Shown here in pieces: positions 4,245 to 52,060 of a DNA stretch of 64,000 nucleotides. The stretch's first letter is position 1, and each line of letters opens with the position of its first letter. The notes beneath the pieces were generated by a model. The model was given only the letters and a program-made list of their open reading frames with translations, was not told the DNA's origin and ran no database searches. Made by a program: the position numbers and the translations under genes. Source of the DNA: Nanobdellati archaeon (lineage in GTDB: Archaea; EX4484-52; GLR71); the NCBI GenBank assembly GCA_019429125.1, contig JAHYJO010000001.1:71088-135087 (forward strand), read 5' to 3'.

Positions 4245-6194
4245 ATGGATGCTGTTATAGATGAGATGGAGCACAAACGGATTGAATTAACACAGAAAGC
4301 GGCTGCTGTGCAGTTTGAAATTAATGATTTGAATACAAAAATTAGTTCAAGAAAAATGCAAATTCAAAATTTTAAAAATCAAGGTAATAATTTGTTAGTA
4401 AATTCTACTTTTCAAAGTATGAAAGCTCTTCAGTACAGGGTTGGTGCAAAAGAACGGATTCTTAAATCTTTGGAAAATGAGATTAATAATCTTCGGAATG
4501 CTGAAGTCAGTGAAGTTAAGGAAGAAGCTAAAGTTGAAGAAGAGGGTATTAAGTCGGGAAATAAATATTTAGCGGGTGCAATGGCTACTCATGGTTATAT
4601 TAAAAATGTTCATGGGCGTTTTAAAGGTTTTAATCTTTTTTTTTATTTAATTGTTATTCTTGCTCTATATATTGATATTTTTAGTGTTTCAAGTACACCT
4701 TTTGGTGTGATGGTTATACCTTTTTTAGGTGTTATTCCTGTATTTATCCTAATTGAACTTTTTTTTATAGTCTGGTTTTTTATTGAGACAAAGGATGCTG
4801 GCAGTCTTGTTCTTATTTCTATAATTTTTGCGTTAAAGAGAATTATACCTATTTTTATGGATGTACCTTTTGAAAGTTATTTAAAATATGTTCCATTTTT
4901 AATTGTTATATTACTAATTAAATATAAATTACCTTATGAAGGTGGGGGTACTTCTGTAAATTTAAGAAGTATTATATGGACAAGTGTACTTTTTGTAATT
5001 TTTGCTATTATAATATCTCTAATACCTATGGTGACATCTTTGCCATCTTATTGGGGTATTGAAACTGCATCTGTAGCGTCTTATGATACAACTGCACCAG
5101 ATAGTTCTTCAACGTCTTCTGCAGTGCCGGGGATATCAGATTTATGGTGTAAGATTGCTCCTATATTTTGTGATACGTCTACAGATACATCTGGTGATAA
5201 TTCTAATATGGTGGGTAGTGGTGGAACTTCGGATGGGACTGTGAATACAGTTGATTTAGCTTTAGCTGTTCCTTTGAAAACTATTTCAACGAGGGTTGAT
5301 GATTTAGTGTCTACTGGTGAGTTTAATTGGGAAATAAAAAATGATGGTTTAAAATCAATTGATAGTGTATTATTTTTGATGGATGGTTCTCAAATACATG
5401 GTAATCATAGTGGTGAAATATATGATTTAGCCAGGGGGTATAATTCTCTATCAGATAGGCTAGAATATTCTGGAATTGACATTGATGATGGATTATTTTA
5501 TAAATCATTGGGCTTGATTCCTCAAGGAAGAATAAGTTCAATAAATGTTGAATTTGGTAGTCCTGAATGTTCACTTACACAATTTAAAGCTCCAGTGTAT
5601 TTATTATATACTTATGAGATTGATTCTAATATTATGCTTACTTTAGGAAGTAAGGATTGGTGGAATAAACTTGATGAGCAAGGTGTTGCACCTAAATTGA
5701 ATCCTACTAAATCAGTTTCGACTGTAGGACCGTTTTCTATATCTATTTATCCTGGTGAAATAAAACAACCGGTTCTTATTGATAAAGATGAATCTTTTAA
5801 AATATTTATTGAAATATCTAAGAATCATCCGGGACGTGCAGCAATAAGTAGTTTTGATATATATCTCTCTCCTAAGCTTGTACCTCAAGATATTGATACT
5901 ACTAGGTGTTCTTTTGTAGGTTCTACTTCTGATTCATCTTCAAATTTGGATTCGTATGTTCTGAGAGATATATTATTTAATCGAATAAATACTGCAGATC
6001 TTAGTTTAAATAATGGATTAAATCAGGATATGGAATATAAATGTTCATTTAAATATGATTCTGCGGATTTTGATAAGGATTTTAGTGGTGGTTCTGTTCA
6101 AAGGTATATAGGTGTACATGTAGAGTATACATATATTTATGATGGTCTTTTTATCTTAAATACTGGCAATTTTACTGATATTGATGTTTGTTAA
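4245..6194 (+). CDS. coiled-coil multi-pass membrane protein with large extracellular region
   Basis: 649 residues in three parts. Residues 1-90 are a charged coiled coil (heptad-like E, K, N, I pattern). Residues about 130-275 contain roughly six hydrophobic helices, one starting FNLFFYLIVILALYIDIF. The rest, about 280-649, is Ser/Thr/Asp-rich and strand-rich with a few cysteines (CKIAPIFC, CSLTQF, CSFVGS, CSF), consistent with disulfide-stabilised Ig-like domains outside the cell. The C-terminal part shares its general style (PG-EIKQPVLID, STVGPFSISI) with the three lipoproteins that follow. No family was recognised. Cytoplasmic coiled coil plus extracellular domain would suit a structural or sensory membrane protein; that is inference. 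Confidence 0.7.
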   Translation: MDAVIDEMEHKRIELTQKAAAVQFEINDLNTKISSRKMQIQNFKNQGNNLLVNSTFQSMKALQYRVGAKERILKSLENEINNLRNAEVSEVKEEAKVEEEGIKSGNKYLAGAMATHGYIKNVHGRFKGFNLFFYLIVILALYIDIFSVSSTPFGVMVIPFLGVIPVFILIELFFIVWFFIETKDAGSLVLISIIFALKRIIPIFMDVPFESYLKYVPFLIVILLIKYKLPYEGGGTSVNLRSIIWTSVLFVIFAIIISLIPMVTSLPSYWGIETASVASYDTTAPDSSSTSSAVPGISDLWCKIAPIFCDTSTDTSGDNSNMVGSGGTSDGTVNTVDLALAVPLKTISTRVDDLVSTGEFNWEIKNDGLKSIDSVLFLMDGSQIHGNHSGEIYDLARGYNSLSDRLEYSGIDIDDGLFYKSLGLIPQGRISSINVEFGSPECSLTQFKAPVYLLYTYEIDSNIMLTLGSKDWWNKLDEQGVAPKLNPTKSVSTVGPFSISIYPGEIKQPVLIDKDESFKIFIEISKNHPGRAAISSFDIYLSPKLVPQDIDTTRCSFVGSTSDSSSNLDSYVLRDILFNRINTADLSLNNGLNQDMEYKCSFKYDSADFDKDFSGGSVQRYIGVHVEYTYIYDGLFILNTGNFTDIDVC

Positions 6195-7264: not shown

Positions 7265-8260
7265 ATGTCTTTGAATATCAGAAAAATGTTTGTGTATGTG
7301 ATGGTTTTTATGACTGTTTTTGTACTTGGTTGTACTGGCAGTGGAAATATGACCTCGGGAGCATCGGATGTTGGTGTTGTGATAACTGAATTTATGTTTG
7401 ATACTCCTGCTGTATATCATAAAGATCAAGTAAATTTATGGCTTGTCCTTGAAAATCAGGGTGCAAAACAGGTTGCAGGTGATACTTCTGTGTTTATATA
7501 TGGACAGACAATATCTACTACTAATAAATCTTGGCAAGTATTTGGTGTACCTTCTTTAGAGCCTAAAACAGAGGATAGTAATATGGATTCTGTAACTTTG
7601 GAGGGTTCATGGAAAATACCGAATTATGATTTCCTTCCACCACAGCCTGATATGGGTGTGCCTGGTGGTGTTGCTACGTTTGAAGCAACAATGGTTGCAC
7701 CTGAATTAGAACAAGGTGAATCAACACAATATACATTTTATACAAGGGTGTGTTATCCATATGAAACAAGCATGTTATCAACTGTTACTTCAAGTTCTAG
7801 GCAAGAAATGAGGATACAGCAGGATACAAGTGCAGTTGAGAATGTAAATACTGCTGGACCTATTCATGTTAATCTTGCAGGACAACAGAACATTGTTGCA
7901 AGAGGCAGTACAATCCCTGTAATTTTCACAATAACTGATGTTGGTGGTGGGTTCTCGACATCTATGGGGACTGTATGTGCTTCAACTCCTAGTAGTATGG
8001 ATCGCGGTAAAGTTGATGTTAAAATTGAGGTTGAAGGTGTAATACTTGATGGTAGTAATACAATGCCTTATGGTGATGCTAATGGGACTCCTAACTGTAA
8101 TAAAACAGTTAAATTAATAAATGGTCAAGCAGAGATGAGATGTTCTATACCTGTTGATCCTAATCAACCTACAAGAGAATATCATATTCGTGCTGTTGCT
8201 GAATATAAGTATTATGTTGGTAGTGATGCACCGATAACAGTTGATTACATTTCGGATTAA
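7265..8260 (+). CDS. predicted lipoprotein, surface paralogue 2
   Basis: 331 residues with signal peptide and lipobox ending VFVLGC at about residue 23. The ATG at 7265 is chosen over an upstream in-frame ATG at 7199 because GGTGATATA immediately precedes it and the signal peptide then starts properly; a TATA-like GTATATATA lies near 7217. The mature part has Ig-like strands, a conserved TRVCYPYETS cysteine segment shared with the third paralogue, and AGPIHVNLAGQQNI. The C-terminal CSIPVD...YHIRAVAEYKYYV matches the C-terminus of paralogue 1 (YKIKAVAKYTYTV). No catalytic signature. Probably an externally anchored binding or scaffolding protein, but that is inference from location. Confidence 0.8.
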   Translation: MSLNIRKMFVYVMVFMTVFVLGCTGSGNMTSGASDVGVVITEFMFDTPAVYHKDQVNLWLVLENQGAKQVAGDTSVFIYGQTISTTNKSWQVFGVPSLEPKTEDSNMDSVTLEGSWKIPNYDFLPPQPDMGVPGGVATFEATMVAPELEQGESTQYTFYTRVCYPYETSMLSTVTSSSRQEMRIQQDTSAVENVNTAGPIHVNLAGQQNIVARGSTIPVIFTITDVGGGFSTSMGTVCASTPSSMDRGKVDVKIEVEGVILDGSNTMPYGDANGTPNCNKTVKLINGQAEMRCSIPVDPNQPTREYHIRAVAEYKYYVGSDAPITVDYISD

Positions 8261-25914: not shown

Positions 25915-27222
25915 ATGAACTCAATTGAGATACTTGAAATATTGAATGATTGGAACTTTTGGAAAAAGAAGCAATTTGTGGGTGTTCGGCGGTCAGACGT
26001 TTTTGATAAAATAAAAAAACTTATAGAACTTGATGAGATTATCGTGATTAGTGGTGCTCGTCGTACTGGTAAATCAACTGTACTTATGCAGATTTGTGAG
26101 GATTTGATAGTTAATGGTGTTGATTCTTGTGATATTCTTATAATTAATTTTGAGGATCCTCGTTTTAAAAGTATTAATCTTGAATTACTTAATAAAATAT
26201 ATGATGTTTATTTAACTGATGTATCTGTTGGTTCTGGAAAACAGTATGTTGTTCTTGATGAGGTTCAAATTGTTTCGGGGTGGGAAAAATTTGCTCGTTT
26301 TTTGCATGAGAATAAAAAAGTGAAGGTATTTGTTATAGGTTCAAGTTCAAAGCTTTTGAGTTCTGAATATTCAACAGTTCTTTCTGGGCGTTATGTTGAT
26401 ATTGTTATGTATCCTTTATTTTTTAAGGAGTTTGTTGAATTTAATGGTGTGGATATAAAAAATAATTTGGATCTTGTGTCTAAACGCCATGCTGTCAAAA
26501 AATTATTTTTACAATATATGGAATCTGGGGGTTTTCCGAAAACTGTACTTATTGATGATGCTGATAATCGAAAAGTCTTGCTTAATTCTTATTTTCAGAG
26601 TATATTGATGAAAGATATTGTTATGAGGTATAATATTAACGATGTTTTTAAACTTGAAGAATTGACTAAGTATTATTTGTCAAATATATCCTCTTTGCAT
26701 TCTTTTAATAAAATTAAAAATATTATTGGTGGGAGTATTGACACTGTTGAACGGTATTCATCATATCTTCGTAATGCTTATATGTTATTTTTTGTTCGTA
26801 AATTTTCATATACTCTTAAAGATCAAATATTGAATCCTCGAAAGGTATATTGTATTGATATGGGTCTTAGAAATTCAGTATCTTTTTATTTTTCAAAGGA
26901 TTATGGGAAGATTATAGAAAATATAGTGTATCTTAAGTTACTTGAAAATAAAGGTTTTGATATTTATTATTGGAAAGATTCTAAGCAGCGCGAAGTTGAT
27001 TTTTTAGTTAAAGAGAAAGATAGGATTTGTCAAGCCATACAGGTGTGTTGGGATGTTAGTAATCCTGTCACTAAAAAAATAGAGGTTGATGCACTTTTGT
27101 CGGCTCTTTCAACATTTGGTCTTAAAGAAGGTCTTGTTCTTACTGAAGATTATGATGAAGTAGTTGTGATTGATGAGAAAAGAATAACATTTATGTCTGT
27201 TTGGAAATGGTTGTTTTTGTGA
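25915..27222 (+). CDS. AAA_14/DUF4143 family ATPase
   Basis: 435 residues from the ATG at 25915, which sits about 25 bp after a TTTATATG box (leaderless); an in-frame TTG at 25897 is the alternative. Walker A GARRTGKST, Walker B-like YVVLDEVQ, an arginine-sensor region GSSSKLLSSEYSTVLSGRY, and the DUF4143 C-terminal domain with YYWKDSKQREVDFLV, which looks like the restriction-endonuclease-like end seen in this family. These ATPases are widespread in archaea, often in many copies and near mobile DNA; their role is not firmly known. Gene context here (broken Schlafen gene, dead DUF4325 gene, TA module) is a typical accessory neighbourhood. Confidence 0.85.
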   Translation: MNSIEILEILNDWNFWKKKQFVGVRRSDVFDKIKKLIELDEIIVISGARRTGKSTVLMQICEDLIVNGVDSCDILIINFEDPRFKSINLELLNKIYDVYLTDVSVGSGKQYVVLDEVQIVSGWEKFARFLHENKKVKVFVIGSSSKLLSSEYSTVLSGRYVDIVMYPLFFKEFVEFNGVDIKNNLDLVSKRHAVKKLFLQYMESGGFPKTVLIDDADNRKVLLNSYFQSILMKDIVMRYNINDVFKLEELTKYYLSNISSLHSFNKIKNIIGGSIDTVERYSSYLRNAYMLFFVRKFSYTLKDQILNPRKVYCIDMGLRNSVSFYFSKDYGKIIENIVYLKLLENKGFDIYYWKDSKQREVDFLVKEKDRICQAIQVCWDVSNPVTKKIEVDALLSALSTFGLKEGLVLTEDYDEVVVIDEKRITFMSVWKWLFL

Positions 27223-39134: not shown

Positions 39135-39260
39135 TGCAGGGGAGGGGATTCGAACCCCCGAACTCCTACGAGAGTGGATCTTGAGTCCACCGCCTCTTGC
39201 CGAATGATACCCCTTAATACATTTAAGGTATGTTCTTTGACCAGGCTGGGCGACCCCTGC
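39135..39260 (-). tRNA. tRNA-Leu(CAA) with an intron in the D-arm
   Basis: Acceptor GCAGGGG / CCCCTGC with discriminator A, anticodon stem GTGGA/TCCAC around CTCAAGA giving anticodon CAA, long leucine-type variable arm (CTCGTAGGAG), T-arm GGGGG-TTCGAAT-CCCCT. Between the D-loop (GGTCAAAG) and the 3' side of the D-stem (GGC) lie about 40 extra bases, roughly 39195-39234, which contain CCTTAA-ATGTA-TTAAGG, a perfect hairpin. Removing them restores a normal D-arm (GCCC/GGGC). Splice sites are uncertain by a few bases. The 5' end is 2 bp downstream of the coiled-coil gene stop, so the two are probably co-transcribed. Confidence 0.88.
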
Positions 39261-44174: not shown

Positions 44175-44257
44175 TTACGGGACTCCGTAAGGTTTTGTAT
44201 TATTTTCTTACGGAAAAGCGTAAGGTTTTTGAATCAAAGTTTACGGAAAAGCGTAAA
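44175..44257. promoter_or_regulatory. three palindromes spaced exactly 33 bp apart (operator array)
   Basis: TTACGG-GACT-CCGTAA (44175-44190), CTTACG-GAAAAG-CGTAAG (44207-44224) and TTTACG-GAAAAG-CGTAAA (44240-44257). Their centres are at 44182.5, 44215.5 and 44248.5, so each step is 33 bp, about three helical turns. The shared half-site is TTACG. A TATATATA box follows at 44270 and the secreted-protein ATG at 44314. Cooperative binding of a dimeric regulator on one DNA face is the simplest reading. Confidence 0.82.
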
Positions 44258-44313
44258 GTTTAGGATTTTTATATATATAGATTGTGCATAAATAAATTAT
44301 ATTGGTAATTATT

Positions 44314-45132
44314 ATGAATAAAAAGATGATGCTTCTATTTTCGTTATTTGTTCTATCTTTTGTCTTTATTTCTGGGACAGTTTATGCTTTTAGTTTTGGT
44401 GATGTGTATTCTGTCTTATTCGGGTCAGTCTTGTCAGTTTTTGATACTTCTGATACTGTTCCTGTCATAAATGCTGCATATCTTGATAAGCAGAAGTATA
44501 TGCCCGGTGAGCAGATGATTGTGACTGCGTCAGTTTCAGGTGCAAAATATGTCAAGGCATATATTGAGACTGATGTCGGTGTTGATGAGGTTGACATGGT
44601 TTTAGTTACAGGTACAAAAGAAGATGGTACCTGGCAGGTTGCGTGGACGTTGCATGATACTGTTACTAAAGAATATTTTACAAAGATTGTGGCTGTTTCA
44701 AAAGATGATATTGAGGATGAAAAAGTTCTTATTTGGGCTGATCCTACAGTGAGTCATTCATGGGATGAAACTGTATGTGATAATAATTTATGTGTGGATA
44801 CAATTAATAATCGTATTGGGATTGGGATTACTACACCTATTGAAACATTAGATGTTGTTGGAAATATTAAAATCAAAGATGGTACTCAGGCGGATGGAAA
44901 AGTTTTAACTTCTGATGCTGATGGATTGGCTAGTTGGCAAGAGGTGAGTGGGGGGGTAATTCCTTCTATGATTGTTGCTTTAGCAAATGTGACTTGTGAT
45001 ACACGATGTGCAAATGTTGGAAAAACTTGTTGGGGTGCATTTGAGACAAATGGTATTCCTCAGACGTACCCAATTTCTTGTTCATATTCTATGAATCCAA
45101 CAAGCTTTATTCTATCTTGTTTTTGTTATTAA
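44314..45132 (+). CDS. secreted protein with Ig-like domain and tail-fibre-like segment
   Basis: 272 residues from the ATG at 44314, with GGTAATT just before it (a TTG at 44302 is also in frame). Signal peptide 1-24 ending GTVYA. Residues about 50-150 form an Ig-like domain (PGEQMIVTASVSGAKYVKAY). Residues about 165-210, GIGITTPIETLDVVGNIKI, then DGTQADGKVLTSDADGLASW, are the repeat found in phage tail fibres and secreted fibre-like proteins. The C-terminus has three paired cysteines (CDTRCANVGKTCWG, CSYSM, CFCY). Controlled, from its position, by the three-palindrome operator array. It may be an adhesin or fibre subunit; function is inferred from domain type. Confidence 0.75.
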   Translation: MNKKMMLLFSLFVLSFVFISGTVYAFSFGDVYSVLFGSVLSVFDTSDTVPVINAAYLDKQKYMPGEQMIVTASVSGAKYVKAYIETDVGVDEVDMVLVTGTKEDGTWQVAWTLHDTVTKEYFTKIVAVSKDDIEDEKVLIWADPTVSHSWDETVCDNNLCVDTINNRIGIGITTPIETLDVVGNIKIKDGTQADGKVLTSDADGLASWQEVSGGVIPSMIVALANVTCDTRCANVGKTCWGAFETNGIPQTYPISCSYSMNPTSFILSCFCY

Positions 45133-51933: not shown

Positions 51934-52060
51934 TGGGCTCGAAGGGGTTTGAACCCTCGACTTCCGGCTCTCCAAGACCAATACTTAGGAAAGCAAGTTC
52001 CGAATTTATGAAACGTGGCCATATAAGACCGGCGCTCCAACCAGACTGAGCTACGAGCCC
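51934..52060 (-). tRNA. tRNA-Ile(UAU) with a 52-base intron
   Basis: Exon 1 (52060-52022): acceptor GGGCTCG, D-arm GCTC-loop-GAGC, anticodon stem CCGGT, loop CTTATA. Exon 2 (51969-51934): A, then GCCGG closing the anticodon stem, T-arm GAGGG-TTCAAAC-CCCTT, acceptor CGAGCCC and discriminator A. Joined, the loop is C-T-T-A-T-A-A, so the anticodon is TAT, reading AUA. The intron lies at the usual 37/38 site (51970-52021) and can pair GGCC with GGTC at its ends. No CCA is encoded. The isoleucine identity follows from the anticodon and the GGGC-A73 features. Confidence 0.85.

Follow-up and report, generated by a model that had tools for sequence, protein, structure and literature searches.

Three copies of the palindrome TTACG-N6-CGTAA, placed at 33-bp steps before the TATA-like box of a gene for a secreted protein, in all likelihood constitute an operator array of the type that belongs to genes of AAA_14/DUF4143 ATPases (PF13173 plus PF13635, COG1373). 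A step of 32-34 bp between palindromes (32-33 bp in bacteria) is the hallmark of the promoters of these ATPase genes, and this palindrome-pair layout is the new part of the result: literature searches on DUF4143, COG1373, AAA_14 and related terms gave no titles or abstracts that describe such operators. The window, that is, the whole 64-kb stretch of DNA that was analyzed, from what is presumably a DPANN-type archaeon, comes from a genome of 1,158,795 bases, and the features that bear on the array are collected in Table 1.

Table 1. Positions in the 64-kb window of the palindromes, the TATA-like box and the genes discussed in the text
Feature	Positions	Strand	Sequence or remarks
Palindrome copy 1	44175..44190	.	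TTACGGGACTCCGTAA
Palindrome copy 2	44208..44223	.	TTACGGAAAAGCGTAA; 18-mer with flanks CTTACGGAAAAGCGTAAG; 33 bp past copy 1
Palindrome copy 3	44241..44256	.	TTACGGAAAAGCGTAA; 33 bp past copy 2
TATA-like box of the secreted-protein gene	44268..44277	+	TTTATATATA; read from the sequence
Secreted-protein gene, 272 aa	44314..45132	+	Signal-peptide-like start; no Pfam family
Upstream gene, 200 aa	43569..44171	+	No Pfam match; kept in the genus even without the array (G006)
AAA_14/DUF4143 ATPase gene	25915..27222	+	36% identical to the L159 ATPase

The preliminary description of the locus had put the palindromes exactly 33 bp apart, and both start-to-start steps are indeed 33. When the whole genome was searched for TTACG-N6-CGTAA, as that description had suggested, the three array copies were the sole exact matches; a genome-wide repeat or a transposon end is ruled out by this confinement to one locus. 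The motif did not arise in any of 40 simulated 64-kb windows (Markov simulations), and no further palindrome pair at 32-34 bp was detected elsewhere in the window. With an array defined as at least two identical-armed palindromes at 32-34 bp, the locus thus has one, with three copies spaced by 33 bp. Between copies 2 and 3, the palindromes agree at 16/16 positions and the spacers at 8/17 (Fisher p = 0.0009), so that the sequence between copies is broadly unrelated, as had been stated, except that GGTTTT follows both copies 1 and 2. The wording "exact helical phasing" of the preliminary description is loose, as 33 bp corresponds to 3.14 turns at 10.5 bp per turn and to three whole turns only at 11 bp per turn. 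No Rfam match above the gathering score was found at the array, the window having three tRNAs only. Two tRNA matches, at 51934-52060 and, on the minus strand, at 39135-39260, are 126-127 bases long and therefore probably hold introns.

The connection with the ATPases comes from a gene-side test, in which PF13635 matches were collected from 61 related archaeal genomes and the 115 upstream regions were scanned with a motif-free pair detector (6-nt arms, up to 2 mismatches, steps 20-50). A pair was present in 50 of the 115 regions and at 32-34 bp in 46, compared with 3.2, about 0.3 of them at 32-34 bp, expected from dinucleotide shuffles. At the same loci, 24/46 ATPase genes had a 32-34-bp pair versus 5/181 other genes, four of these five being preselected or neighbours of an ATPase array. 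Among bacterial ATPases, taken from genomes that were reached via the TTACG motif, 18/69 carried a pair (14/69 at 32-33 bp; 0.6 pairs in shuffles over all steps), and the palindromes before several genes of this sample (TGACATT or GTGTAA, for instance) bear no relation to that motif. The palindrome changes from one ATPase subfamily to the next and the step is common to all; that the step stays constant whatever the palindrome points to a fixed protein geometry. Many ATPase genes lack a detectable pair, including the one in the window, before which no phased pair was found. The TATA-like box clusters half a step from the palindrome centre (mean phase 0.51, Rayleigh ~1e-4) and stands either in the interval that separates the palindromes or shortly downstream of the proximal copy. 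Operator likeness is limited to close ATPases (Mantel r 0.28, 0/2000 permutations). This would be expected if the operator is read by the gene product or by a co-inherited factor; common ancestry of the promoters is a possible alternative source. The claim that phased operators precede a TATA box here is well supported, since dozens of promoters from a single gene family repeat the step. These ATPases reach 10-25 copies in many of the bacterial genomes sampled (G105 and others).

Searches for related arrays extended the picture beyond the locus. Across the order, a 33-bp pair pattern with up to three mismatches found arrays in six genomes; since the reversed control pattern also produced matches, single ones, in six genomes, the weakest arrays, those with three mismatches, may be due to chance. 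In G014, arrays immediately precede the TATA boxes of AAA_14/DUF4143 ATPase genes. The own genome contains a second three-copy 33-bp array, of GTTACG flavour (G000:C26:12665-12746; L041 ~7666-7747), and this contig 26 array directly precedes the TATA box of a broken AAA_14/DUF4143 ATPase gene. Two Micrarchaeota ATPase promoters (L130 and L159), with tandem palindromes at 33 bp, carry the identical 18-mer CTTACGGAAAAGCGTAAG and thus share an operator sequence with the window. In L130, a second TTACG 33-bp pair (~4655-4710) is located ~100 bp beyond the first, toward the divergent neighbour of the ATPase gene.

A species-wide scan covered the genomes of 84,980 species with the gap left free, and its counts are samples among the matches listed. 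In these, ATPase starts adjoined the arrays at 13/29 loci with a step of 32, 3/11 with a step of 33 and 4/16 with steps of 39-40, compared with 0/68 loci for steps 26-31. At least 48 loci, mainly in Rhodobacteraceae, had a step of 27, and a DUF4143 ATPase was present at 0/48 of them among the matches listed. HipA (L048, array 2781-2850) and HTH_3 (L063) genes lie near two Pfam-checked loci of this kind, so that the Rhodobacteraceae arrays are probably HipBA operators; the HipBA system autoregulates. Such operators resemble the present array in having tandem TTACG-N6-CGTAA near a gene of a self-regulating system but differ in their 27-bp step. The locus does not fit a HipA/HipB-type operator: its neighbours are the 200-aa and secreted-protein genes without Pfam matches, and the step is 33. 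The preliminary description would have been undermined by a motif that is common and unphased elsewhere; this does not apply to the own genome, but TTACG-N6-CGTAA is not exclusive to such promoters, occurring at other steps in bacterial HipA/HipB-type and XRE loci, and the motif alone was accordingly rejected as a marker.

Archaeal transcription starts from TBP/TFB promoters, and archaeal repressors of the Lrp, TrmB and CopR families use palindromic, repeated promoter sites that overlap BRE/TATA and can exclude TBP/TFB. These families work like the proposed array, through repeated palindromes at a promoter; they are not known to have a sequence-independent 33-bp step. The operators, as double-stranded DNA, would take a dimeric regulator, with dimers side by side at the ~33-bp step. 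The ATPase itself may bind its own operators via a winged helix at the start of the DUF4143 part, its oligomerisation would set the step, and the bound ATPase would block access of TBP/TFB and thereby repress its own gene. We regard it as moderately probable that the ATPase family is the binder of such arrays. The regulator, described previously as unknown, is thus not wholly so, given that the layout belongs to AAA_14/DUF4143 ATPase genes, although the binder is a predicted one.

For the L159 ATPase, the AlphaFold model (mean pLDDT 84.6) comprises an AAA domain plus a PD-(D/E)XK-like C-terminal part, and its region 229-303 forms three helices together with two strands, an arrangement compatible with a winged helix. 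Among the top Foldseek matches are PABY2304, which is an ATPase, Can2, and Cdc6/Orc1 on origin DNA, and two bacterial ATPases have weak HTH_36 and FUR Pfam matches in the corresponding part. To speak of a winged helix and of a nuclease is our reading of the model, the fold search and the Pfam matches. No sequence relatives of the ATPase were found in the PDB.

The locus shares with the ATPase promoters the tandem 33-bp palindromes before a TATA box and the 18-mer. Unlike them, it has the secreted-protein gene directly downstream instead of an ATPase gene, three copies instead of two, and the centre of the TATA-like box ~23 bp beyond that of copy 3 (28-30 bp in the sister species G003 and G005) instead of at the half-step of ~16.5 bp. 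In G003 and G005, a two-copy array with the 33-bp step precedes the orthologous secreted gene, and copy 3 of the window aligns with the promoter-proximal copy. In G006, the 200-aa gene and a Hel308-like helicase are kept, but neither the secreted gene nor any of the palindromes is present. By this joint presence or absence the array goes with the secreted gene; the upstream gene, conserved in G006 where the array is missing, is probably not the target, and the array as an element of that gene was rejected. Comparison of arms and spacers across the three species involves few changes. Regulation conserved across the secreted-protein family at large was rejected because no arrays were found before the homologues in G029. 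The N-terminal part of the orthologues (L014, L016) is 79-86% identical to that of the window protein, and the C-terminal part (window 44820-45132) is unrelated in each sister species, a pattern resembling that of a surface protein with exchanged tips.

At this locus, the array would probably put the secreted gene under an ATPase of the AAA_14/DUF4143 family or a related regulator; alternatively, it could be what remains of the promoter of an ATPase gene of this kind. No ATPase with a CTTACG-type operator was found in the 93%-complete own genome, where the best ATPase is 38% identical to that of L159, and the TATA-like box departs from the half-step, so that regulation, including the cooperative binding proposed earlier and the predicted binding by a DUF4143 ATPase, can here only be inferred. 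No ATPase match was found in G003 (75% complete) either. The array may be controlled in trans by an ATPase that has diverged or is missing from the assembly, it may serve another regulator, or it may be a relic. Function is favoured by the sequence identity between copies 2 and 3 and by the way in which array and secreted gene occur, or are missing, together; decay is favoured by the TATA distance and by the broken arms in sister species (one arm of copy 1 in G003, one of copy 2 in G005). We consider the chances evenly balanced that the array still functions for the secreted gene. The explanation as a whole, an operator array for a dimeric regulator, likely a DUF4143 ATPase autorepressor, placed before a secreted gene, appears likely.

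If the array is instead a relic, the site was formerly that of an ATPase gene with CTTACG operators; this gene disappeared or gave way to the secreted gene, leaving the palindromes to decay without function. ATPase genes do break in the own genome (contigs 17 and 26) and orphan arrays without an adjacent ATPase exist at G006:C9, L064 and L093, which, with the broken arms and the unusual TATA spacing, lend this account some weight. Decay does not readily explain why copies 2 and 3 are identical despite their diverged spacer, why the 33-bp step was retained when a third unit was added in the own genome, or why three species have retained the array together with the secreted gene, and no ATPase remnant was found nearby; we therefore judge it unlikely. 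The best BLAST match for such a remnant (E 0.003 over ~120 queries) falls within the secreted reading frame and was taken as chance.

It is still less probable that the TTACG palindromes serve some other regulator, XRE/HipB-like or another helix-turn-helix protein, whose sites have the 33-bp spacing by coincidence. The archaeal 33-bp step is found almost only at DUF4143 ATPase genes, and the identical 18-mer precedes such genes in Micrarchaeota, even if bacterial TTACG-N6-CGTAA arrays with steps of 27-32 bp do lie close to HipA and XRE genes, the cognate ATPase was not found in the own genome, and a 33-bp GTTACG array in G005:C56 precedes a gene with HATPase_c_4 and winged-helix domains. In that array (L042 3791-3839), the protein of the nearest gene, which is not a DUF4143 ATPase, is apparently a C-terminal half. 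It is highly improbable that the copies form RNA hairpins which, one after another, terminate transcription of the upstream gene: the array begins 3 bases beyond the stop codon of that gene, the copies are followed by stretches rich in T, and each of the palindromes is able to fold (-6.6 to -7.3 kcal/mol; z -0.8, -1.9, -3.0), but the palindromes do not stay with the upstream gene in G006, arrays elsewhere sit directly before TATA boxes, and terminators need no fixed step with free spacer sequence.

Returning to the operator reading, we tentatively advance, as a possibility short of even odds, that AAA_14/DUF4143 ATPases of archaea and bacteria, with up to 25 copies per genome, are sequence-specific autorepressors that would bind as winged-helix dimers, spaced by 32-33 bp, on either side of the TATA box or the -35 element, with a private operator for each subfamily and with operators also recruited to other genes, such as that of the secreted protein. 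If true, a large, nearly uncharacterised ATPase family, half of which is a domain of unknown function, would gain its first concrete activity, namely, the recognition of palindromes that are private to each subfamily and set in a fixed geometry within the promoter of the ATPase gene itself. As the operators can be predicted from sequence, binding, repression and step dependence are directly testable. Arrays before non-ATPase genes would then mark targets of the family or past insertions, and the array at the secreted gene, a stray example of a layout usual before ATPase genes, hints at the role of these ATPases.
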